From NCBI GenBank assembly GCA_017934595.1, contig JAGBJG010000007.1, positions 1-64,000 of the forward strand: 64,000 bases of DNA, written 5' to 3'. The stretch comes from Bacilli bacterium. GTDB lineage: Bacteria; Bacillota_I; Bacilli_A; RF39; UBA660. Under the pieces are notes generated by a model. That model was not told the DNA's origin. It searched no databases and saw only the letters and a list, made by a program, of their open reading frames with translations. Made by a program: the position numbers and the translations under genes. Below, in pieces: positions 8,152 through 43,999 of this stretch. The number at the start of each line of letters is the position of its first letter. The first letter of the stretch is position 1.

Positions 8152-9192
8152 ATGTATCGAAATACATATGTGGAAATTAATTTAGAAAATATTAAATATA
8201 ATGTTAAGACATTAATTAATAAATACAAAGATTATAAATATTATTTTGGTGTAGTAAAAGCAGATTCATATGGGCATAATGATATATCCACAGTAAAAAC
8301 TATTATAGATGCAGGATGTAATTATCTTGCTGTAGCTACTTTAGATGAAGCAATGGAAATAAGAAACCATATCAAAGATATACCTATATTATGTCTAGGT
8401 ATAATTGATCCTAAATATATAGATGTTTGTATAGAAAATAATATTACTATAACTATAAGCAATCTAGACTATTTAAAAAAGATAGATGGTAACTTGAAAG
8501 TTCATATTAAAGTTAATACTGGTATGAATAGATTAGGTGTGAATAATAAGAGTGAATTTAATGAAATATATAAAATTATTAATGAAAAGGGAATGTATTT
8601 AGAAGGAATATATACACATATATATAATCCAGCTAATATAGATACCACTAATAAGCAATACAATATATTTGAATCTATTACTAGTGATATAAATTTAAAT
8701 AGTATTCCAATTATCCATGTAGGTGCGAGTGAAGCTACAGAATTTTTTAAGAAGAAAGATTATGCCAATGGATGTAGACTTGGTATAGCTATGTATGGAT
8801 TAGTTGATTATGATAATTTAAAATCAACATTTAGTCTATATAGTGAAGTAATTCAAATTAATGAAGTTACTGATGGAACAGTTGGTTATAATGGTAATTA
8901 TAAGGTAAATGGTACTGAAAGAATAGCAGTAGTACCAATAGGATATGCAGATGGTATTATAAGACATAATACAGGTAGATATGTTTATATTAATGATAAA
9001 GCATATAAAATAGTTGGTAATATATGTATGGATATGTTATTTTTAAAAGTTGATGATAATGTTAAAGTAGGGGATAAAGTAGTCATTATAAAAGATAATA
9101 AGCATATTAATGAAATTGCTAAACATTTAGATACAATTACATATGAAGTAATATGCTCAATTAGTAAAAGAGTACCAAGAATATATAAATAA
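8152..9192 (+). CDS. alr: Alanine racemase
   Basis: 346 residues; the PLP-dependent enzyme that converts L- to D-alanine for peptidoglycan, in the cytoplasm. The N-terminal barrel carries the PLP-lysine motif VVKADSYGHN (K36), followed by HIKVNTGMNRLG and the C-terminal beta domain with VVPIGYADG and GNICMDM. It is slightly shorter than the usual 370-390. ATG 8152 has GGAAGTGAT upstream. In Bacilli alr is often near acpS or a toxin-antitoxin operon; here it is alone, convergent with a minus-strand glycosyltransferase. Confidence 0.95.
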   Translation: MYRNTYVEINLENIKYNVKTLINKYKDYKYYFGVVKADSYGHNDISTVKTIIDAGCNYLAVATLDEAMEIRNHIKDIPILCLGIIDPKYIDVCIENNITITISNLDYLKKIDGNLKVHIKVNTGMNRLGVNNKSEFNEIYKIINEKGMYLEGIYTHIYNPANIDTTNKQYNIFESITSDINLNSIPIIHVGASEATEFFKKKDYANGCRLGIAMYGLVDYDNLKSTFSLYSEVIQINEVTDGTVGYNGNYKVNGTERIAVVPIGYADGIIRHNTGRYVYINDKAYKIVGNICMDMLFLKVDDNVKVGDKVVIIKDNKHINEIAKHLDTITYEVICSISKRVPRIYK

Positions 9193-9225
9193 AACACTAT
9201 TAAATATAATTAATATATTACAAAT

Positions 9226-9255
9226 AAAAACTCAATTCAGTGAATTGAGTTTTTA
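9226..9255. terminator. Bidirectional terminator between alr and the convergent gene
   Basis: AAAAACTCAATTCA is followed by its near-perfect reverse complement ending in TTTTT, with A-tract and T-tract on opposite sides, so it can serve both alr (+) and the gene at 9260-10942 (-). Confidence 0.9.
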
Positions 9256-9259
9256 TAAA

Positions 9260-10942
9260 CTATTTTGATATTTTATAATATGTAGCTTCAACATCAGTAT
9301 TAAGTGATAATAATACTTCATAATCAGTATAACCTGTACTAGTTAATACTTTATTCAATACTTCTTCTTGATTCAACCAATTTTTGATACATAAGATGAA
9401 TTCATTACTATTTCTTAATTTATCATTATTTAAAATGTCAAAATCATGAATGGTGTTATTTAATATGATACTTTCTTTATAAGTGGCAAATTCAGGCATA
9501 GAACTTAAATGTGTGAAATAATTATCAAATACGTATACAAAATATTTATCACTATTAGCTTTAGCTAATTCCATAACTTGTTTATTATCTTTATATAAAT
9601 AAGTTGGTGTATTATTTATGAATCCATTAATTGATAAAATAATTGAAAATAATAATGTTACAAGTAATGTATTTTTATTAAATATAAATGTAGACATATA
9701 TATTATGCTTATAGCTATTGTTGGGAATAAAATCATTATATAACGTGATGTATATTTTTCACCAAGGAATGGAGATATTTTACTCATAATTAGTATATAT
9801 ATGAATATTGGAATTATAAGTATTAACATTTTATATAATTGTTCTTTACTAATTTTTTGTAAATTTCTTTTAATTAATTTGAATATTAGAATAAACATTA
9901 AAATTGCAATTATAAATATTAATATATTTTTAAATCCAAACAATTCATATATTTGTGTGAAATAATAATTAATATTTTCCATAATTGTTTTAGTATGTTC
10001 ATTTGTGCCGCCAAGACCTCTATATGAGAAGAAGATATCTTCAATACTAAAAGGATAGAATATAATACCACTAATTGCAGGTATAATATGAACTCTTAAA
10101 TATTTAAACCATTTTTTAAATTGTTTGTTTAATAATAGATAGATGCTTATTAACATGAATATAATAGCGATATATACACAGAAATAATATTGAGTTAAAA
10201 ATCCTAATAAGATAGTAATTATCCACCATCTTTTCTTTTTGATTTCAAAATTATCGTTTATTAATTTTAATGTTAAACATAGATAACATAACCCAAAGAA
10301 CGTCATCATCATATACATTCTTTGAAACATAACAGTACTTATACATCCTATACTTGCTCCATAAAGTATCATAGCTGGAATGGTTAATTCATCATGTTTT
10401 AATTCTTTCATTATTTTTTTTATTATAAATAGGGATGATACAAAGAAAATTAAGTTAAGTATAAATATAATATATTTTGAAAATATTCCATAGAATAGAG
10501 ATGAAATAAAGTGAACAAGAAAGTAAAATAATGGGGGATGAACATCTCTAGCTTGATTATAGTAAACTGAAAAATAATTAAAAATATCATTTTTTTCAAT
10601 AACTAAATAACTTTTAGCTTCTTCTTTAGTACGGAATATTGGAATCTCTTTAGATAAATTTTCATCTTTTTGAAAAGAAGAATTATCTTTTATATATTTA
10701 GTGATATTAGATATTTTTTCTTTTAAATTGCCTTGTAATACTTGATTATATAAAATATCTTGATCAGCTTCCGCATATCCATACCATCTATATACATTAT
10801 CATATTTATAGTTACTAGAACCATAAGAGAAAATTTCATCTTCATGGAATCCGTTTTTTTGTGTAATAAAATAGCACATAATACTAACTAAAATAAGTAT
10901 AGTTAAAATAATATATTTGTTTCTTGATATAAAGTTTTTCAT
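9260..10942 (-). CDS. Polytopic GT-C-fold glycosyltransferase (YfhO/GT39-like)
   Basis: 560 residues with about 11-13 hydrophobic segments. An acidic pair after the first helix (FHEDEIFSYG) and the HPPLFYFLVHF motif in the large extracytoplasmic loop are hallmarks of polyprenyl-phosphate-sugar-dependent GT-C enzymes (PMT/ArnT/RgtA-like). Such enzymes transfer sugar from an undecaprenyl-phosphate carrier to an envelope acceptor outside the membrane. The divergent neighbours 11047 (GtrB-like) and 11966 (GtrA-like) supply carrier synthesis and flipping, so this is likely the third member of a GtrABC / CsbB-GtcA-YfhO system. The acceptor, perhaps teichoic acid, cannot be told from sequence. ATG 10942 has GGTGAT upstream. 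Confidence 0.8.
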   Translation of the reverse strand: MKNFISRNKYIILTILILVSIMCYFITQKNGFHEDEIFSYGSSNYKYDNVYRWYGYAEADQDILYNQVLQGNLKEKISNITKYIKDNSSFQKDENLSKEIPIFRTKEEAKSYLVIEKNDIFNYFSVYYNQARDVHPPLFYFLVHFISSLFYGIFSKYIIFILNLIFFVSSLFIIKKIMKELKHDELTIPAMILYGASIGCISTVMFQRMYMMMTFFGLCYLCLTLKLINDNFEIKKKRWWIITILLGFLTQYYFCVYIAIIFMLISIYLLLNKQFKKWFKYLRVHIIPAISGIIFYPFSIEDIFFSYRGLGGTNEHTKTIMENINYYFTQIYELFGFKNILIFIIAILMFILIFKLIKRNLQKISKEQLYKMLILIIPIFIYILIMSKISPFLGEKYTSRYIMILFPTIAISIIYMSTFIFNKNTLLVTLLFSIILSINGFINNTPTYLYKDNKQVMELAKANSDKYFVYVFDNYFTHLSSMPEFATYKESIILNNTIHDFDILNNDKLRNSNEFILCIKNWLNQEEVLNKVLTSTGYTDYEVLLSLNTDVEATYYKISK

Positions 10943-11020
10943 AACATCACCGATATTATTATATCATATTGAATTAATTTTTTTGTATTTATTATTTATA
11001 TATCAAAAACTATTTAAAAA

Positions 11021-11029
11021 TGTTATAAT
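11021..11029 (+). promoter_or_regulatory. Extended -10 promoter of the gtrB-gtrA pair
   Basis: TGTTATAAT, 17 bases before the ATG at 11047; the leader would be only about 10 nt and just includes the GAGGTGGG ribosome binding site. Confidence 0.6.
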
Positions 11030-11046
11030 TATATAGAGGTGGGAAA

Positions 11047-11976
11047 ATGATTAGTATAATTATTCCATGTTATAATGAGGAAGAATCAATACCCTTATTT
11101 TATGAAGAAATAAATAAAACTATTAAAGAAATGAAGAAAGTGCCATTTGAACTTATTTTTGTTAATGATGGTTCAAAAGATAGAACATTAGAAATATTAA
11201 GAGAATTAGCTAAAAAAGACAAGAAAGTTAGATATATATCTTTTTCAAGAAATTTTGGTAAAGAGGCTGGAATATTAGCTGGTTTAGAAGCCGCTAAGGG
11301 GGACTATGTTGCGATGATGGACGTTGATTTGCAAGATCCGCCATATTTACTAAAAGAAATGTATGAGTCATTACAAGATAAAGATTTAGATTGCGTAGCG
11401 ACTCGTAGTGTATCAAGAAATGGATATTCTTTCTTTAGAAAACTATTTACAAAATGGTATTATAAGATAATAAATAAAATAAGTAAAACTCCTATTGTTG
11501 ATGGAGCTAGAGATTTTAGATTAATGAAAAGGAAAATGGTTGATGCTATTTTATCTATGAGAGAGTATAACCGCTTTTCTAAAGGAATTTTTTCATGGGT
11601 AGGATTTAATACAAAATGGATTACTTTTGAAAATACTGAAAGGGTAGCAGGTACTACAAAGTGGAATTTCTGGAAGTTATTTGCTTATTCTATGGAAAGT
11701 ATTGTTGGATTTTCAACTACGCCACTTCTAATTTCATCAGTAATAGGTGTACTATTTTGTATAATTTCATTTATCATGATAATTGTTATTATTGTAAAAA
11801 CATTAATGTTTGGTGATCCTGTAGCTGGATGGCCAAGCGCGATATGTATTATATTCTTTGTAAGTGGAATTCAATTATTCTCTATTGGTATAATAGGTCA
11901 ATATTTAGCTAAAACATATTTAGAGGTAAAAAATAGACCAATTTACATTGTAAGGGAGACTGAAGATGATATTTAG
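11047..11976 (+). CDS. GtrB/CsbB-type undecaprenyl-phosphate glycosyltransferase (GT2)
   Basis: 309 residues. The N-terminal GT-A domain shows IIPCYNEEESIPLF, FVNDGSKDRT, SRNFGKEAGILAGLEAA and the metal-binding MDVDLQDPP; two membrane helices follow (about 235-260 and 270-290), the layout of GtrB/DPM1-like enzymes. It would load a sugar from an NDP donor onto undecaprenyl phosphate on the inner leaflet. Its end overlaps the gtrA-like gene by 11 bases, implying coupled translation. The sugar cannot be predicted. Confidence 0.9.
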   Translation: MISIIIPCYNEEESIPLFYEEINKTIKEMKKVPFELIFVNDGSKDRTLEILRELAKKDKKVRYISFSRNFGKEAGILAGLEAAKGDYVAMMDVDLQDPPYLLKEMYESLQDKDLDCVATRSVSRNGYSFFRKLFTKWYYKIINKISKTPIVDGARDFRLMKRKMVDAILSMREYNRFSKGIFSWVGFNTKWITFENTERVAGTTKWNFWKLFAYSMESIVGFSTTPLLISSVIGVLFCIISFIMIIVIIVKTLMFGDPVAGWPSAICIIFFVSGIQLFSIGIIGQYLAKTYLEVKNRPIYIVRETEDDI

Positions 11977-12364
11977 ACTATATAAAAAATATGATGAAAT
12001 TATAAAATATCTTATTTTTGGTATTTTAACTACAGTTGTATCTATTGCGAGTTATGCTTTATTTACTCGTATATGTCATATTGATATTTATATAAGTAAT
12101 ATATTATCTTGGATAGTTTCTGTTACATTCGCGTTTATAACAAATAAAATTTATGTTTTTAAATCTAAAAATAAGAAATTACTTACTGAAGCAGTTAAAT
12201 TTTATATATCAAGAGTTGCATCTTTAGTTATAGAACTTATTATAATGTATTTATTAGTTAATATAATGCATATTAATGATATGATAAGCAAAGTAATAGT
12301 TCAAGTAATTGTTATTATATTGAATTATGTATTTAGTAAAATATTTGTATTTAAAAATAAGTAA
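11966..12364 (+). CDS. GtrA-family polyprenyl-phosphate-sugar flippase
   Basis: 132 residues with four hydrophobic helices, the GtrA/GtcA fold, including the typical FGILTTVVSIASYALFTR start and two FxxNKIYVFKSK-type repeats (residues about 55 and 125). It is thought to move undecaprenyl-phosphate-sugar to the outer leaflet. It overlaps the preceding GtrB gene and ends in a strong terminator shared with the convergent toxin gene. Confidence 0.9.
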   Translation: MIFRLYKKYDEIIKYLIFGILTTVVSIASYALFTRICHIDIYISNILSWIVSVTFAFITNKIYVFKSKNKKLLTEAVKFYISRVASLVIELIIMYLLVNIMHINDMISKVIVQVIVIILNYVFSKIFVFKNK

Positions 12365-12392
12365 AACACTATTAAACATTAATAGTGTTTTC
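12363..12392. terminator. Bidirectional terminator between gtrA and the type III toxin gene
   Basis: AAAACACTATTA and TAATAGTGTTTT form a 12-bp perfect stem with a 5-base loop. It contains the stop of the minus-strand toxin gene and directly follows the gtrA stop. Confidence 0.9.
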
Positions 12393-12860
12393 TTCTAATA
12401 ATATATTTTTCATTTTTATAATATCATTAAATGCGATTTTGTGATACCTTTCTTCAGTTAATTTGATTAATTCTTTCGCGTATGATATTATTTTATTCTT
12501 TAACTCATAATTGATTTCAACGTCTTTCCTTTTATTGACATATTTACCTATAATATATTGTTCTGTAACAGGAAAGATATTTTGTATTAAAAAAGCTTTT
12601 TCTTCATTTAAGATATTCCCAAATACAAAATTTAGTACAGTTTTATGATTTTTCTTCTTTTGCTTATATAACAATTTGTATTTATCTACTTTGTGAGATA
12701 TTGGTATAAACCAAAGTATTATAGGATTTTTCTCGTCTCTAAAACATAGATAGCAAGGTCTTTTATTACCATTTTCTTTATTTTGCATTAAATGCTCATT
12801 TTTAAATAATTCAAAATATTTATCTTTTATAAAATATAATTTTCCTTCTTCAATTTTCAT
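12372..12860 (-). CDS. Type III toxin-antitoxin endoribonuclease (CptN/ToxN-like)
   Basis: 162 residues, within the ToxN/CptN/TenpN size range. The pattern is IKDKYF near residue 11, LMQNKENGNKRPCY, WFIPISHKVDKYK near 52 and FLIQNIFPVTEQY near 95; all four blocks recur in the homologue at 43316-43777. In this family the toxin is an endoribonuclease that cuts mRNAs and its own RNA antitoxin precursor and is held inactive by pseudoknotted repeats. The context is diagnostic: upstream on the same strand are two tandem repeats (12930-13023), then a hairpin terminator (12882-12914), then GGTGAT and the ATG at 12860. The CptN subfamily is my best guess; the type III class is well supported. Confidence 0.82.
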   Translation of the reverse strand: MKIEEGKLYFIKDKYFELFKNEHLMQNKENGNKRPCYLCFRDEKNPIILWFIPISHKVDKYKLLYKQKKKNHKTVLNFVFGNILNEEKAFLIQNIFPVTEQYIIGKYVNKRKDVEINYELKNKIISYAKELIKLTEERYHKIAFNDIIKMKNILLEENTINV

Positions 12861-12881
12861 AATTCATCACCTATATTTTAA

Positions 12882-12914
12882 CAAAAAAAGAGGAAGTTGC
12901 GTTATACAACTTCC
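12882..12914 (-). terminator. Attenuating terminator between antitoxin RNA and toxin gene
   Basis: Read on the minus strand, GGAAGTTG and CAACTTCC pair around a 7-base loop and are followed by a T-run. This position, between repeats and toxin gene, is where type III systems place the terminator that limits read-through into the toxin. Confidence 0.88.
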
Positions 12915-12929
12915 ATCCATAGTTTTTAT

Positions 12930-13023
12930 ACCTATATACTTATTACTCGCTATATAGGGTGCGAGAAACATTTCGTTCACCTATGCATTTATAACTCGCC
13001 ACATAGGGATGCGAGAAACTTTC
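12930..13023 (-). ncRNA. Type III antitoxin RNA, two tandem pseudoknot repeats
   Basis: Two imperfect tandem units on the minus strand: 13023-12979 (45 nt) and 12978-12930 (49 nt). Each has a CTCGC...GCGAG hairpin whose loop can pair with a downstream segment, giving an H-type pseudoknot. In the first unit CCTATG pairs with CATAGG; in the second CCTATATA pairs with TATATAGG. Both sides changed together, which is direct covariation support. The array begins 8 nt after the CCA of tRNA-Gly with no room for its own promoter, so it is probably made as a tRNA co-transcript and cut by the cognate toxin. Confidence 0.82.
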
Positions 13024-13031
13024 AAAAAAAA

Positions 13032-13105
13032 TGGAGCAGGTGATGGGAATCGGACCCACGTCAGGAGCTTGGAAGGCTCTTATTCTACCATTGAACTACA
13101 CCTGC
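13032..13105 (-). tRNA. tRNA-Gly (anticodon UCC)
   Basis: Minus-strand cloverleaf: acceptor GCAGGTG pairing with CACCTGC, discriminator T, encoded CCA, TTCGATT T-loop, and anticodon loop CTTCCAA giving UCC. The last base pair of the anticodon stem is an A-C mismatch. It is followed immediately by the type III antitoxin repeats. Confidence 0.95.
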
Positions 13106-13125
13106 AAAATTAGTAGGCACTTTTA

Positions 13126-13153
13126 ATTATACCTTATTTTGAGATAAAGTCAA
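13126..13153 (-). promoter_or_regulatory. Promoter of tRNA-Gly, probably also of the antitoxin-toxin unit
   Basis: On the minus strand: TTGACT, 16-bp spacer, TATAAT, with the tRNA 5' end about 20 bp downstream. It is the only recognisable promoter upstream of the tRNA, antitoxin and toxin. Confidence 0.8.
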
Positions 13154-13279
13154 GTATTCTTGATAAAAAAATATTATTAAATTTAAAAGAATATAATAAT
13201 ATAGTAATTGATTTGCTTTTTTTATAAATAAGTAGTAAAATTATTATGGTAATTTAATTACTAGAAGTGGAGTGCTCGT

Positions 13280-14515
13280 ATGGTAGTATTATATTATATT
13301 GTATTTTATTTATCGCTTACATATGGACTTTTCTTTTTAGTTACTGGTTTTTGGGGTTTTGCTAAGAATGGACGTAAACAAATTAAAGAACATGCTCCCA
13401 AAACTAGATTTGCTATTTTGATAGCTGCTAGAAATGAAGGTAAAGTAATAGGTAGTCTTATTGATAGTTTAAAGAAACAAGATTATCCTAAGAATTTATA
13501 TAAAATTTATGTAATTCCAAATAACTGTACAGATGATACAGAAGAAGTTGCTAAAAAAGCGGGAGCTAAGATTATATCTTGTGATATTCCTGTTAAAACT
13601 AAAGGTGAAGTATTAAAACATGTATTTGCTAAATTCATGGATAAAAAAGATTTTGATGCATTTGCTATATTCGATGCAGATAATATCGTTGATCCAAATT
13701 GGTTAAAAGAAATGAATAATACTTTATTATCAGGATTTAACGTTGCTGAAGGTAATAGAGATTCTAAAAATGTTTCTGATAACTGGTTAAGTGGTAGTTA
13801 CAGTTTATTCTATTACATGCAAAACTTATTCTTTAATAAAGCTCGTTTAAACTTAGGTTTATCAGCTGCTATTAATGGTACAGGTTTTGTTGTAAAGAAA
13901 AGTGTAATTGAAAAATATGGATTTGATCCTAAAACACTTACTGAAGATTCAGAATTTACCGCACAATGTTCACTTAATGGTGAGAGAATTGCTTACGTAG
14001 AAAAAGCTATTACATATGATGAACATCCAATTAGATTTAAAGATTCTTGGAATCAAAGAAAACGTTGGAGTAAAGGAACATTACAATGTTTAAGAATATA
14101 TGGTGGAAGATTATTCCTAAATATATTTAAGAATGGTAATATGACATCACTTGATATGTTAATGATGTTTATGGCACCAATCGTTCAAGTTATATCATTA
14201 ATACTATTCTTAGTATTAACTGAATTTAGATTCTTAGGAATTGAATTATTCGATTTATTCTCTTATTTATTCGCATCAGGAATTTTATTCTTTGTAGTAA
14301 CATATTTGATTGGTGTAGCTACTAATGTATTTGTATTTAAAATTAATCATCAAAAGATTAGTGAAGTACTAAGTAGTGTATTCTTATTTGTATTATTTAT
14401 ATTTACATGGATACCAATAAATATTGTATGTCTTGTCAAAAAAGATGTTACATGGAAACCAATCACACATACAAGAAATGTTGATGTTGATGCTTTATTA
14501 AATAAAAATAATTAA
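13280..14515 (+). CDS. Membrane-bound family 2 glycosyltransferase
   Basis: 411 residues: one N-terminal helix, a GT-A domain, then three to four C-terminal helices. Motifs are LIAARNEGKVIGSLIDSL, the FDADN metal motif, TEDSEF and QRKRW (Q-x-x-R-W), the set of processive inner-membrane GT2 enzymes such as IcaA-like and hyaluronan-synthase-like proteins. It probably makes or extends an extracellular polysaccharide, product unknown. The start at 13280 is preceded by AAGTGGAG. It is monocistronic, with a terminator just after the stop. Confidence 0.85.
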   Translation: MVVLYYIVFYLSLTYGLFFLVTGFWGFAKNGRKQIKEHAPKTRFAILIAARNEGKVIGSLIDSLKKQDYPKNLYKIYVIPNNCTDDTEEVAKKAGAKIISCDIPVKTKGEVLKHVFAKFMDKKDFDAFAIFDADNIVDPNWLKEMNNTLLSGFNVAEGNRDSKNVSDNWLSGSYSLFYYMQNLFFNKARLNLGLSAAINGTGFVVKKSVIEKYGFDPKTLTEDSEFTAQCSLNGERIAYVEKAITYDEHPIRFKDSWNQRKRWSKGTLQCLRIYGGRLFLNIFKNGNMTSLDMLMMFMAPIVQVISLILFLVLTEFRFLGIELFDLFSYLFASGILFFVVTYLIGVATNVFVFKINHQKISEVLSSVFLFVLFIFTWIPINIVCLVKKDVTWKPITHTRNVDVDALLNKNN

Positions 14516-14539
14516 TGTAGATTATATCTACATTTTTTT
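14514..14539 (+). terminator. Rho-independent terminator
   Basis: AATGTAGAT and ATCTACATT pair with a short loop, followed by seven T residues. Confidence 0.85.
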
Positions 14540-14591
14540 GTGTTAAAAAATAATTATAAACATATAGTTTAATATAGAAAGGAATGAGGTA

Positions 14592-14852
14592 ATGGAAACA
14601 TTAAAAGTCGGATCTAAATCTAATCCAAATTCAGTAGCAGGAGCTTTAGCTAATGTATTTAAAAATACTGATACTGTAGAAATTCAAGCTATAGGAGCAG
14701 GCGCACTTAACCAAGCTGTTAAAGCAGTAGCTATAGCTAGAGGATTTGTGGCTCCTTCTGGTATAAATTTAGTTTGTATTCCAGCATTTACTGATATTAC
14801 ATTAGATGGTGAAGAGAGAACTGCCATTAAATTAATTGTAGAGGCTTTATAG
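14592..14852 (+). CDS. spoVS: Stage V sporulation protein S
   Basis: 86 residues, the full length of SpoVS. The family core is clear: LKVGSKSNPNSVAGALANV, IGAGALNQAVKAVAIARG, and the acidic C-terminal DGEERTAIKLIVE. SpoVS is a small Alba-like protein that acts in cortex and coat stages in Bacillus, with homologues also in some non-sporulating bacteria. It is monocistronic, with GAAAGGAATGAGG upstream and a terminator overlapping its end. With spoIVFA/B, cse60 and yjcZ in the same window it supports a sporulating lineage. Confidence 0.93.
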   Translation: METLKVGSKSNPNSVAGALANVFKNTDTVEIQAIGAGALNQAVKAVAIARGFVAPSGINLVCIPAFTDITLDGEERTAIKLIVEAL

Positions 14853-14867
14853 TCTCTTTTCTTTTTT
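14840..14867 (+). terminator. Rho-independent terminator of spoVS
   Basis: AGAG...CTCT hairpin spanning the spoVS stop, followed by a T-rich tract. Confidence 0.7.
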
Positions 14868-14900
14868 GCTAATTTATTGTATACTTGAGTTGGTGGTTAT

Positions 14901-15320
14901 ATGGATAGTAATATGAAAAGAGAAATAATTTTAGATAATTATGAAAATCCTAGAAATAGAGGATTAATAGATAATAATGAATATGAAAAATCTGATATGA
15001 ATAATGAAAGTTGTATTGATCATGTTATTGTAGAAGCTAAAATAGAAGATAATATTTTAAAAGATGTTAGATTCGATGGTGAAGCTTGTGCTATATGTAC
15101 ATCATCCGCATCTATTATGACTGAAACATTAAAAGGAAAAGATGTTGATACTGCTAAAAAGATTGTTGATAACTTTGAAAAAATGATTAATGGTGAAGAA
15201 TTTGATAAAGATATATTAGAAGAAGCTTCAGTATATGAAGATATCAAAAATCAACCTAATAGAAAAAAATGTGCATGTCTATCTTGGTGGGGTATAGATA
15301 ACATTATAAATAAGAAGTAA
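14901..15320 (+). CDS. sufU: SufU-type Fe-S assembly scaffold / sulfur acceptor
   Basis: 139 residues. The NifU/IscU fold starts with LDNYENPRNRG and carries the three expected cysteines in ESCIDH (with the nearby Asp), ACAICTSSASIM and KKCACLSWWGI. SufU takes persulfide from SufS and is zinc-containing in Bacilli. A partner SufS lies at 34637-35827, but sufBCD are not in the window, so the usual suf operon is broken up here. The start is ATG 14901 after a GGTGGTTAT site; ATG 14913 is possible. Confidence 0.88.
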   Translation: MDSNMKREIILDNYENPRNRGLIDNNEYEKSDMNNESCIDHVIVEAKIEDNILKDVRFDGEACAICTSSASIMTETLKGKDVDTAKKIVDNFEKMINGEEFDKDILEEASVYEDIKNQPNRKKCACLSWWGIDNIINKK

Positions 15321-15373
15321 TTTGACAAAATGTATTATTTCTATATAATAAATATCAATTAAAGGGGGATATT

Positions 15374-16063
15374 ATGAGAAAGTTATATAGTTTAGTTAAA
15401 ATTAGTGAATCAAGAGTAGAAACTCCGATAGTTTTAGATGGTATATTAGAAATTAAGAATAGTTTAGATTTAATAGATAGGTTTACATCAAAATTTACTT
15501 ATGATGAACTATTCGCGAATTTAAATTTAGAAGAAGGTTCAAAATTATATATAAAATATGTATATAATAAAGAATATAAATATTTACCTATCATAACTAA
15601 AGAAAATGATAAATTCTTAATATTTACTAAAGAAAATTTAAATGATCAAGAAGAAAAAATATATACAGACGATTTTGATACATATATAAATAGAATTATA
15701 AAATTTGTGAGTGAACATTCAGATTGTAAATATCTTGATTACTTAGTTGATCACAAATATATAACGGCTCATGTTAAAGATAGGATATATGAATATATAG
15801 CTATAGAAGCTATGGAATATTATGGTTTAAAAGATTTAGATGATAAGATTCCTAATAAAGTCGCGATTATGATAAGCTTAAAAAAACATTTAGGTAGTTA
15901 TAAGCAATTAAGAGACTGGTACTTTGGTACAAAAGCTTTTATAGTAGGTGAAGAAAAAATCAATGGTAGATTAAGTGCATCTGAGTATCCTACACAGTAT
16001 GAAGAATGCTATCATCAATGTACAATTGATGAAACTTGTAAAAGTTTGAATCTTAAAAAATAA
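15374..16063 (+). CDS. Unknown protein, tandem paralogue 1
   Basis: 229 residues, no signal peptide or membrane segment, highly charged. A strong AAAGGGGG site precedes ATG 15374. It is a diverged paralogue of the next gene: both share an ID(R/K)(F/Y)T..F..EL block, an LYI.Y motif near residue 60, a (T)Y(I/V)N block mid-protein and a C-terminal YK.(L/I)R..Y.GTK motif. Six Cys residues include a C-terminal CYHQC...C group. I do not recognise the family; a structural or regulatory cytoplasmic role is all that can be suggested. Confidence 0.7.
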   Translation: MRKLYSLVKISESRVETPIVLDGILEIKNSLDLIDRFTSKFTYDELFANLNLEEGSKLYIKYVYNKEYKYLPIITKENDKFLIFTKENLNDQEEKIYTDDFDTYINRIIKFVSEHSDCKYLDYLVDHKYITAHVKDRIYEYIAIEAMEYYGLKDLDDKIPNKVAIMISLKKHLGSYKQLRDWYFGTKAFIVGEEKINGRLSASEYPTQYEECYHQCTIDETCKSLNLKK

Positions 16064-16085
16064 TTCCTTAATTGGAATTTTTTTG
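16062..16085 (+). terminator. Rho-independent terminator
   Basis: AATTCC-TTAATT-GGAATT followed by T residues, beginning in the stop codon. Confidence 0.8.
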
Positions 16086-16092
16086 TTATAAT
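16084..16092 (+). promoter_or_regulatory. Extended -10 promoter
   Basis: TGTTATAAT overlaps the T-run of the preceding terminator, 23 bases before the next start. Confidence 0.6.
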
Positions 16093-16115
16093 AATAATAG
16101 ATTGTAGGTGATGAC

Positions 16116-16808
16116 ATGCCAGGAAAATATAGAAGATATAGTATGATTGCTTTAGACCCTGAAACAAATTATAAAACTATATTTGGTGTGGATATTGATA
16201 AGCTAAATATTAAAGTTTTTAAAGGTGGTAAAACTACATTAGCTGAGATTGATAAATATACAATGCAATTTAATGATATAAATGAATTAGAACAAGATTT
16301 ATTTAATAGAGACATTATTGATGCTGATGTAATGCTTTATATTGAATATAAAGAGAAACATGTTGTAAATAATGTGACCATAGAAAATAGACAAACTGAT
16401 GTACTTTATGCAGGTGATAGTGAATTAAAACCATTTACTGATGAGTTATCAACATATGTAAATGAATTTAGTAGTCATTTTGGTAAGTTTTATAAGCAAG
16501 TCGTAGATAATAAAGATACTGAGTGGTGGAAATTTTTAAATAAGTATGGATATATAAGTGATACATTATATGGTTATCTTTTGGATGGAAGAAAATATAG
16601 GATTGATAGTCTTCTTCAAAGAGAATTAGTAAAACAACTTACTAATTATAAGACAATAAGAAATATTTATTTAGGTACTAAAAAATACAAAAATAATATT
16701 CATAAATATGAGGGAGAAATAACTGGAGAAGTTGGTACCAGAATTGCTGAACAAAATAGTGAGATAGATGATTTAATTGAATATGCACAAACAGGGCGTA
16801 TAAAATAA
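16116..16808 (+). CDS. Unknown protein, tandem paralogue 2
   Basis: 230 residues, soluble, starting at ATG 16116 with GGTGATGAC upstream. It is the partner of 15374-16063: same length and order of motifs, ending in YKTIRNIYLGTKKYK and an acidic tail. Unlike its paralogue it lacks the cysteine cluster, so the shared function probably does not need metal or disulfides. Each gene has its own terminator and promoter, so they are duplicated units and not one operon. No family recognised. Confidence 0.7.
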   Translation: MPGKYRRYSMIALDPETNYKTIFGVDIDKLNIKVFKGGKTTLAEIDKYTMQFNDINELEQDLFNRDIIDADVMLYIEYKEKHVVNNVTIENRQTDVLYAGDSELKPFTDELSTYVNEFSSHFGKFYKQVVDNKDTEWWKFLNKYGYISDTLYGYLLDGRKYRIDSLLQRELVKQLTNYKTIRNIYLGTKKYKNNIHKYEGEITGEVGTRIAEQNSEIDDLIEYAQTGRIK

Positions 16809-16827
16809 GAGGGTGACCTCTTTTTTC
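16807..16827 (+). terminator. Rho-independent terminator
   Basis: AAGAGG-GTGA-CCTCTT and a T-run, overlapping the stop codon. Confidence 0.9.
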
Positions 16828-16847
16828 TTGTCATATTTTATAAAAAT

Positions 16848-16856
16848 TGCTATAAT
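16848..16856 (+). promoter_or_regulatory. Extended -10 promoter
   Basis: TGCTATAAT, 23 bases before the pilin-like gene at 16880. Confidence 0.55.
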
Positions 16857-16879
16857 GAATATAGTTAGGATATGATATT

Positions 16880-17236
16880 ATGAAAAAAGGATTTACTTTA
16901 GTTGAATTATTAGCTACGTTAGCTGTACTTTCGATATTACTTGTAATAGGTACAAGTTCAGTAGCGAAAATAATAAAAGAACATAAACAAAATTTATATA
17001 ATGAACAAATTGAGTCATTTGAAGAATCTGCTAAATTATGGTCTTATAAAAATACTAGTTTATTACCTGAAGATGGTAGTTCACTTAAAATTACATTAGG
17101 AGAATTAGAAACTGCTAAATTTGTAAAAAGTGGTATCAAAAATCCTTTAACTGGTGAATATTTTGGTAAAGATAATTATGTTTGTATATTTAATAATAAT
17201 GAATCATATACATACGAATATAATGGTGGATGTTAA
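16880..17236 (+). CDS. Small type IV pilin-like protein (minimal form)
   Basis: 118 residues. The N-terminus KKGFTLVELLATLAVLSILLV is a class III (prepilin) signal: Lys-Lys-Gly, cleavage before Phe, Glu at mature position 5, then a hydrophobic helix. A short soluble head follows with conserved-looking ...PLTGEYFGKDNYVCIFNNN and one C-terminal Cys pair. It resembles minor pilins or ComG-type pseudopilins. No prepilin peptidase or assembly ATPase is nearby, so those must be elsewhere. It is the smallest of four proteins in this window with such an N-terminus. Confidence 0.82.
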   Translation: MKKGFTLVELLATLAVLSILLVIGTSSVAKIIKEHKQNLYNEQIESFEESAKLWSYKNTSLLPEDGSSLKITLGELETAKFVKSGIKNPLTGEYFGKDNYVCIFNNNESYTYEYNGGC

Positions 17237-43108: not shown

Positions 43109-43141
43109 TTGACATATATAACTATTTGTGATAAATTATAT
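43108..43141 (+). promoter_or_regulatory. Promoter of type III unit 2; left copy of a duplicated proS promoter
   Basis: TTGACA (43109-43114), 17-bp spacer, TAAATT (43132-43137). The 34-bp segment matches 43773-43806 with two mismatches. Transcription would begin near 43144, at the first antitoxin repeat. Confidence 0.85.
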
Positions 43142-43143
43142 AT

Positions 43144-43268
43144 GTACTCGAAACACAGGTATGCCACGAGTAGAAATGTGGGATATAAAAATTCTACTTA
43201 TGAAATTTTCTCGCTCTGCAGATTATGCGAGTAATAAGGTCTGTATGTGTTTGTTGTATGTTTTATGT
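43144..43268 (+). ncRNA. Type III antitoxin RNA 2, two pseudoknot-like units
   Basis: Unit 1 has TACTCG/CGAGTA (43145-43150 / 43167-43172) with loop CACA able to pair with TGTG at 43177-43180. Unit 2 has CTCGC/GCGAG (43210-43214 / 43227-43231) with loop GCAGATT able to pair with GGTCTGT at 43238-43244, allowing G-U. The scaffold CTCGC...GCGAGTAATAAG is shared with the antitoxin at 12930-13023 while the pseudoknot strands differ, the expected look of a homologous antitoxin with another specificity. An open frame at 43128-43313 crosses it but is not a believable gene. Confidence 0.75.
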
Positions 43269-43294
43269 AAGAAGGTTTTATACCTTCTTTTTTT
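43269..43294 (+). terminator. Attenuating terminator before toxin 2
   Basis: GAAGGT and ACCTTC pair around a short loop and are followed by eight T, between the antitoxin RNA and the toxin gene, as in unit 1. Confidence 0.88.
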
Positions 43295-43315
43295 GATATG
43301 CGAGGAGGTGTAGTG

Positions 43316-43777
43316 GTGATAATATTAGGCTGCTTATATCATATAAAAGATGAATTTTTTAATTTGGTTAATGATAAGTATTTAATGTTGAATCACGAAG
43401 ATGGTCATTCTAGACCAAATTATTTTATTTTGAAAGAAGAAAAATTTTATTGGGCGATACCATTGTCTTCAAAGGCGGAGAAATATAAAAATATACTTTT
43501 AAAACGTGGGAAAAAGTTTTGTAAAACAATTATAATTACAAAAGTTGGTACATTTAATAATGCAATACTTCTTCAAAATGCTTTTCCAGTAACTGAAGGA
43601 TATGTAAAAAGTGTTCATATATATAGTGGTAAACAATTGATTTTAGATAAAAGTGTTGAAGATGAAATATTAAAAAATTTCAAAAAGATGCTTTCATTAA
43701 AGAAAAATGGTATTAATTTATTTTATCCCAATGTAGATAGGATAAAAATGATTTTAGAAAAAGAATTGGTGCATTGA
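43316..43777 (+). CDS. Type III toxin-antitoxin endoribonuclease 2 (CptN/ToxN-like)
   Basis: 153 residues, clear homologue of the toxin at 12372-12860: shared LY.IKD.(Y/F)F, LM.N.E.G..RP.Y, W.IP(I/L)S.K..KYK, and L(I/L)QN.FPVTE.Y. I chose GTG 43316 (6 bases after AGGAGGT at 43303-43309), which aligns with the other toxin's N-terminus; ATG 43298 lies upstream of that site. The order promoter, RNA repeats, terminator, toxin is complete. Its TGA stop sits inside the -35 box of the proS promoter. Confidence 0.82.
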   Translation: MIILGCLYHIKDEFFNLVNDKYLMLNHEDGHSRPNYFILKEEKFYWAIPLSSKAEKYKNILLKRGKKFCKTIIITKVGTFNNAILLQNAFPVTEGYVKSVHIYSGKQLILDKSVEDEILKNFKKMLSLKKNGINLFYPNVDRIKMILEKELVH

Positions 43778-43806
43778 CATATATAAATATTTATGATAAA
43801 TTATAT
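43773..43806 (+). promoter_or_regulatory. proS promoter; right copy of the duplicated promoter
   Basis: TTGACA (43774-43779), 17-bp spacer, TAAATT (43797-43802). It matches 43108-43141 at 32 of 34 positions and is 665 bp from it. Confidence 0.85.
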
Positions 43807-43808
43807 CT

Positions 43809-43999
43809 AGAAATCAGTGATATAGGACATAATTATTGATAAGTTATATATAGAAAGTTAGTGGTTGATGGAAACTAATTATAACATTAATAATTCCTAC
43901 CTATTAGAGGAGTTAATCACTCCCGGTGAAAGCCGTTATTTAAATTAAGTGAAACAAAGGATGGTATAGTCTAAGGACTCCTTAAAACCATCTTTTTTT
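43809..43999 (+). promoter_or_regulatory. Proline T-box leader of proS
   Basis: Stem I carries the distal GGTTGATGGAA loop also seen in the leuS leader, and the specifier position reads CCT (43896-43898, Pro). The antiterminator is AAGG (bulge with TGGTAT) AGTC-TAAG-GACT-CCTT at 43957-43983, and the competing terminator pairs GATGGT (43960-43965) with ACCATC (43987-43992) followed by seven T. The normally near-invariant TGGNACC reads TGGTATA here. Uncharged tRNA-Pro would favour read-through. Confidence 0.8.

Follow-up and report, generated by a model that had tools for sequence, protein, structure and literature searches.

Type III antitoxins are RNAs that bind a toxic RNase directly. Here we asked which promoter supplies the antitoxin RNA of a type III unit that lies directly behind a tRNA gene. 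The unit is part of the window, the whole 64,000-nucleotide stretch analysed (positions 1-64,000, forward strand, of contig JAGBJG010000007.1, assembly GCA_017934595.1, from a Bacilli bacterium of RF39; UBA660), which belongs to a draft genome of 18 contigs that is 86% complete. Along the minus strand, the sequence contains a promoter, tRNA-Gly(UCC), a tract of eight T (T8), two pseudoknot repeats, an intrinsic terminator, and the gene for a 162-aa toxin. The order of tRNA-Gly, repeats, terminator and toxin given in the initial annotation, with its 8-nt gap, is borne out, and its coordinates were accurate to a base or two. The features are:

13126..13153, minus strand: sigma-A-type promoter of the tRNA, TTGACT-16-TATAAT, 11/12 consensus; hexamers and spacer are the same in the same-genus genome
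13032..13105, minus strand: tRNA-Gly(UCC) with encoded CCA (ARAGORN; Rfam RF00005, 64.2 bits)
13024..13031, minus strand: T8 spacer from the tRNA CCA end to the first CptI repeat, from the sequence
12973..13023, minus strand: CptI repeat 1 (S1 13015-13011/12999-12995, S2 13007-13001/12986-12980)
12922..12972, minus strand: CptI repeat 2, with a putative 3' boundary (S1 12965-12961/12950-12946, S2 12958-12952/12937-12931)
12884..12914, minus strand: intrinsic terminator in the antitoxin/toxin interval, a 9-bp stem (12914-12892) and a T-rich tail
12372..12860, minus strand: cptN toxin gene, 162 aa, intact ORF (NF047359, 4rmo, AF2/Foldseek)

We propose that this is a promoterless CptIN system placed behind the sole tRNA-Gly(UCC) gene, and that tRNA and antitoxin probably share a joint transcript that is cut by CptN, with the antitoxin following tRNA transcription.

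The toxin is CptN and the locus is therefore a CptIN type III toxin-antitoxin system; type III families are defined through toxin sequence similarity, according to the available text of PMC4627078. The protein scored 158.4 bits against the NCBIfam equivalog NF047359 (cut-off 90), matched 4RMO, the CptN of Eubacterium rectale, by phmmer (E=1.5e-15), and matched a profile of 30 relatives at 1.3e-36. Its AF2 model (pLDDT 87.9) has 4rmo_A as the best Foldseek match (E=6.1e-11, TM 0.80), followed by MazF and CcdB, which places it in a ToxN/Kid-like fold. For the same ORF, Pfam gave no match and PADLOC a chance-level match at most. The NF047359 and 4rmo matches, together with the fold, thus confirm the initial assignment to type III and narrow it to CptIN.

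The CptN active site is a triad, [Ser]-[Ser/Thr]-[Arg], as described in the accessible part of PMC4627078, and this triad is a conserved trait of CptN, separate from the naming criterion. Here S55 is kept, His stands at position 56, and the third residue is K57, with K likewise present in 89 of 145 aligned toxins. Position 56 is Ser/Thr in 139 of the 145; His occurs only in the CptN described here, and the other five have R, K or A. His56 could weaken the toxin or act in acid-base catalysis. Because His56 is unique and the toxin branch is long, toxin activity, and hence CptN processing, may be altered. Asp81 and Ser85 help E. rectale CptN to specify adenine (PMC4627078, available text), and in our reading of the 4rmo sequence alignment their counterparts are seemingly not conserved.

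The same genome has two further CptN genes, one of them in the window at 43328-43759(+), and ToxN-type (PF13958) genes, one open and one broken, at G000:C13:52561-53049 and C16:88096-88571. The second CptIN of the window, at 43111-43830, has a TTGACA-type stretch at its start, and a near copy of this starting stretch (TTGACATATATAA...GATAAATTATAT) was seen by eye after the toxin, at about 43775. CptN-like matches in frames of 274-279 codons, below the CptN cut-off and on a very distant branch, were found in L170, L171 and L172 (f13 genomes), and these three genomes also have ToxN matches elsewhere.

Both repeats can be written as H-type pseudoknots, repeat 1 as CTCGC-ATC-CCTATGT-G-GCGAG-TTATAAAT-GCATAGG and repeat 2 as CTCGC-AC-CCTATAT-A-GCGAG-TAATAAGT-ATATAGG, with a start-to-start spacing of 50. 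S1 is CTCGC/GCGAG in both, and S2 is CCTATGT/GCATAGG in the first and CCTATAT/ATATAGG in the second, differing by one two-sided compensatory change and one one-sided change. Not one of 1000 dinucleotide shuffles of the 110-nt stretch gave even a single unit matching the score of the weaker repeat. Nested folding of the 162 nt 3' of the tRNA, a method blind to pseudoknots, gave a modest signal (z -1.81, 6/200 shuffles as good), and a permissive Rfam search of the repeat region returned nothing above chance except the tRNA. In a pseudoknot scan of CptN loci, 41 of 150 had a spaced unit pair; the pair types counted in it were pre-selected for pairing, so the count is no covariation test. The L2 loop is 8 nt long here and 11 nt in 66 of the 83 units picked by the scan from relatives.

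CptIN of E. rectale (4RMO), as presented in the available text of PMC4627078, has the same toxin family and fold and two tandem H-type pseudoknot repeats, likewise with S1, S2, an A-rich L2 (9 nt there), a GA^AAG-like repeat boundary, and the order repeats, terminator, toxin. Its CptI is a 45-nt pseudoknot from two genetic repeats, its last A bears a cyclic phosphate, and GA was added 5' and AAG 3' of the unit to permit CptN processing (same source). By eye, the repeats here have the same GA^AA context: the first starts at TTTTTTTTGA^AAGTTTCTCGC and the second at GA^AATGTTTCTCGC. Our locus differs from that of E. rectale in the tRNA gene and promoter upstream and in the second triad residue, His.

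A consensus scan of the minus strand from 13126 to the toxin start found no further promoter-like site (9/12 or better). The best site before the repeats, TTTTGC-16-TAGAAT, reaches 7/12 and ends within the tRNA. The yardstick was a set of 154 distinct CptN loci whose upstream sequence is 200 nt or longer; a clear tandem repeat is seen in 146 of them, counting the window's locus. Within 110 nt upstream of the repeat, 129/146 have a site of 10/12 or better and 138/146 one of 9/12 or better, with the -10 mostly 18-34 nt from the repeat. The 10/12 count is the fairer one, since 9/12 sites arise by chance in AT-rich DNA (14 found in 1.2 kb, both strands, versus 10.2 expected). Seven other loci also score below 9/12 within 110 nt. 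With longer upstream sequence L116 reaches 12/12 and L212 10/12; L010 and L232 have a 9/12 site farther away, the upstream sequences of L142 and L179 are truncated at a contig edge, and L143 gets no better than 7/12. The usual layout of the survey, a promoter directly before the repeats, is thus absent from the window's locus, and for this reason we call it a CptIN variant. Type III antitoxin and toxin are transcribed from a single promoter, according to the accessible text of PMC5086642. Here there is one promoter-like site upstream of both, placed before the tRNA.

The genome has 29 distinct tRNA genes, 14 of them run-ending, that is, with no same-strand tRNA after them in 1.5 kb. A terminator lies 9-36 nt past the CCA in 13 of these 14. 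Gly(TCC) has none within 100 nt of its CCA, and the first terminator after it is that of CptI. Among the other 15 tRNAs, tRNA-Lys(TTT) has a terminator, and two show matches inside the next tRNA gene (by eye) that we took as chance. The next tRNA after tRNA-Lys(CTT) is 92 nt away, with no terminator between, and the remaining 13 inter-tRNA spacers measure 1-25 nt; that between tRNA-Thr(TGT) and tRNA-Tyr is also T8. T8 therefore need not stop transcription and, with no terminator after Gly(TCC) and a spacer like those of tRNA runs, CptI occupies the place of a run's next tRNA. When leader, tRNA, CptI and terminator are folded together, the minimum-free-energy structure retains the cloverleaf.

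Gly(UCC) is present as a single copy among the 29 tRNAs, and as the genome is 86% complete there may be a second. In the one other genome available for the genus, the promoter has the same hexamers and spacer, promoter plus tRNA are 93% alike, and collinearity extends to the neighbouring genes on the far side. The similarity ends at most 2 bases from the CCA, and no CptIN lies behind tRNA-Gly(TCC) in that genome. Since promoter and tRNA are conserved there without CptIN, the promoter goes with the tRNA. We also inspected 31 tRNA-Gly genes of relatives by eye; most have a terminator within about 100 nt, where CptI sits here, a few precede another tRNA, and none has CptI behind it. The leader between the -10 and tRNA-Gly(TCC), at 13106-13125, holds GTGCCTACT, and the same sequence or a close variant stands before tRNA-Gly in several family relatives (by eye).

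Four other readings of the locus were weighed. CptI might have its own promoter, which would lie within the tRNA gene or escape the scans by its type, with the tRNA a mere neighbour; sigma-A consensus scans do overlook other promoter types, and the weak 7/12 site ends inside the tRNA. We regard this as very unlikely, given that no site from the tRNA promoter to the toxin reaches 9/12, that most other CptIN loci have clear sigma-A-type sites, and that the tRNA sequence is similar in relatives without CptIN behind it. It is improbable to the same degree that T8 terminates tRNA transcription and CptI is made weakly or not at all. The transcript would have an eight-U tract 4 nt past the acceptor stem, but an intrinsic terminator is a U tract adjoining a short hairpin, the scans find no terminator at T8, and the same tract lies between tRNA-Thr and tRNA-Tyr, 8 nt apart.

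An assembly error at the junction is hardly credible. Synteny with the sister genome does break beside the tRNA end, and the genome is a draft in 18 contigs, but the 299-base stretch from the promoter to the CptI terminator has a single match in the genome, and low-complexity sequence at the joint is confined to T8, shorter than usual assembly overlaps; misassembly is unlikely for these reasons. The remaining reading is decay: the module landed promoterless behind the tRNA and its toxin activity is being lost. His56 in place of Ser/Thr (1/145), a branch of 1.86 against a median end branch of 0.1, and the presence of the unit in one of the two genomes of the genus all fit such a course. Against it stand a full-length ORF whose 158 bits fall within the range of full-length relatives, two intact pseudoknots with a compensatory change, and an intact terminator, and we see decay as possible but doubtful.

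The initial annotation had the antitoxin made from the tRNA promoter, and this is well supported by sequence and comparison, through the signal scans, the same-genus genome, and the survey of CptN loci. Co-transcription of CptI with the tRNA is likewise a well supported prediction, and the RNA antitoxin is probably made whenever tRNA-Gly(UCC) is made. The sequence itself shows the parts and their order, the family, the conserved promoter and tRNA, and the lack of any other recognisable signal; the single transcript, its cut sites, its regulation and the direction of transfer are what we infer. Transcription would start near 13119, pass through the tRNA, T8, and both CptI pseudoknots, and mostly end at the CptI terminator, which would double as the tRNA terminator; some read-through would yield the toxin mRNA. 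RNase P would trim the tRNA 5' end, and CptN would cut GA^AA at 13022/13021 and 12973/12972 to give CptI monomers that hold the toxin. The leftover tRNA trailer, about 10 nt, would be trimmed by 3' exonucleases. With a joint transcript, antitoxin supply would follow tRNA transcription, which depends on growth; the supply line here thus appears to be tRNA transcription itself.

The initial annotation also attributed the antitoxin 5' end to tRNA 3' processing by RNase Z or by exonucleases. This part is not supported, because 3'-5' exonucleases are unable to create the 5' end of a downstream RNA and CCA is encoded in 29/29 tRNAs of the genome. In B. subtilis, RNase Z processes almost all tRNAs without encoded CCA and RNase PH processes CCA-containing precursors (PMC8097732, available text), and on this basis RNase Z was rejected for this step. 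The known CptI maturation enzyme is CptN itself, according to the accessible part of PMC4627078, and CptN cutting at GA^AA is the likelier source of the 5' end.

CptN could also be the endonuclease releasing the only tRNA-Gly(UCC) from its precursor, the GA^AA cut severing the terminator-capped CptI tail and exonucleases finishing the CCA end. CptN is a candidate tRNA-processing enzyme because a 3'-5' exonuclease could reach the tRNA most simply once the pseudoknots and the terminator hairpin have been taken off by an endonuclease. We consider this extension unlikely. If true, the cell would make toxin, antitoxin, and a needed tRNA in a constant ratio, each dependent on the others, and for that reason would be unable simply to delete the toxin-antitoxin unit; the toxin would be free once tRNA transcription stops.

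A search of related genomes for tRNA-antitoxin adjacency, proposed in the initial annotation, found it at the window's locus and at none of the other 153 CptN loci surveyed (tRNA directly before the repeats, 1/154). The survey began with 178 candidate loci, 175 of which had an N-terminal hit (L173, L013 and L017, with none, were dropped), and became 154 on removal of L009, L015 and L019 (second fetches of their own loci), 8 with less than 200 nt upstream, and 10 duplicates. Broken-toxin loci were kept, and 136 of the 154 have more than 700 nt upstream. Coverage is partial, with 80 of 377 relatives from genome contigs and 70 places from the family search. Any tRNA within 700 nt upstream of the toxin start is present at 5/154 loci (L001, L160, L164, L166 and L175), L001 being the window's. 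In L160, L166 and L175, a same-strand tRNA ends 286, 448 and 387 nt before the toxin start, respectively, with a terminator-like hairpin after it, and L160 also has a promoter-like site before the repeats (by eye). The tRNA upstream in L164 is on the opposite strand. A wider class of tRNA-linked type III systems was thus not found among the 154 CptN loci, the window's being the one case. Of the 30 loci obtained with the ToxN model, a single one has a tRNA in the sequence retrieved, some 500 nt upstream and on the same strand.

No tRNA lies in the sequence retrieved from two viral contigs that carry CptN, and the exact tRNA-CptI junction had no match in viral contigs. No CptN was found in phage records; plasmids gave 6 records, 2 of which entered the survey. 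A single-protein search of genome contigs returned no match.

In line with the initial annotation, which knew of no described type III system within a tRNA transcript, we found no description of a type III antitoxin inside one among the open-licence PMC papers listed in our searches. The common plan of ToxIN and TenpIN, as given in the available text of PMC5086642, is one promoter, RNA repeats, a Rho-independent terminator, and an endoribonuclease toxin, and the toxin families differ from CptN. A functional small RNA as the 3' tail of a tRNA precursor is known from the 3'ETS of E. coli glyW-cysT-leuZ (PMC7154689, accessible text), and the signals and comparison here support a predicted CptI RNA in the same transcript 3' of the tRNA. 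The 3'ETS is a sponge for small RNAs and has no toxin (same source), whereas the predicted tail here is a putative protein-binding antitoxin followed by a toxin gene. The placement of CptIN behind a tRNA is unusual; the CptIN system itself is already known. The locus would be a natural fusion of a tRNA and a protein-binding RNA, and it illustrates how a toxin-antitoxin unit with no promoter of its own can become established in a genome. Its weight is limited, since only one case is known and the genome is a draft.

The CptIN unit was probably acquired horizontally, and the sequences of relatives favour its arrival here over its loss in the same-genus genome. A tree of 143 toxins places the window's CptN beside six Clostridia sequences (100/88) and, one fork deeper, two plasmid copies (100/99), while its two same-genome paralogs lie apart. 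Its branch of 1.86 is long, the bootstrap had not settled, and the program warns of false long-branch joining. Identity to the six Clostridia toxins is 39-47%, and to a further Clostridium group 51-53% over the first 103 residues. Site-specific integration at the tRNA 3' end was also considered and rejected. The window contains the final 20 nt of the tRNA a single time (at most 3 mismatches), so no attachment-site duplicate was seen in it, and no integrase was noticed by eye among the ORFs at 9000-17000.

The search of relatives also turned up a conserved 3'-trailer element: many stable RNAs of this family carry, immediately behind their CCA, approximately TTGACGAATCT and then a hairpin GTTCGAA-CTA/CTT-TTCGAAC. 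Examples are G001:C3:33791-33808(-), in L051 of the same genus, and L275-L313; in G001 the element takes the place held by CptIN in the window. The window's own genome has no match to it. CCA plus the element (at most 3 mismatches) is present in 150/291 family genomes, and a reversed-pattern control gave 1 hit (G596). Of 39 trailer loci read, two of them repeat fetches, 22 abut an ARAGORN tRNA (Gly, Thr, Leu, Ala, Arg) or tmRNA. The other 17 follow a CCA that ARAGORN did not assign, L278 among them, where a contig end truncates the tRNA. Rfam gave no family at the element in 6 loci. A perfect 6-7-bp stem is present in 22 of 25 distinct trailers, with a few two-sided changes, and the element could serve these RNAs as a common module for processing or termination. 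In L275, L276, L277, L281 and L284, the CCA-ended sequences before the trailer are unrecognised by ARAGORN and Rfam; they are possibly odd tRNAs or another CCA-ended RNA.
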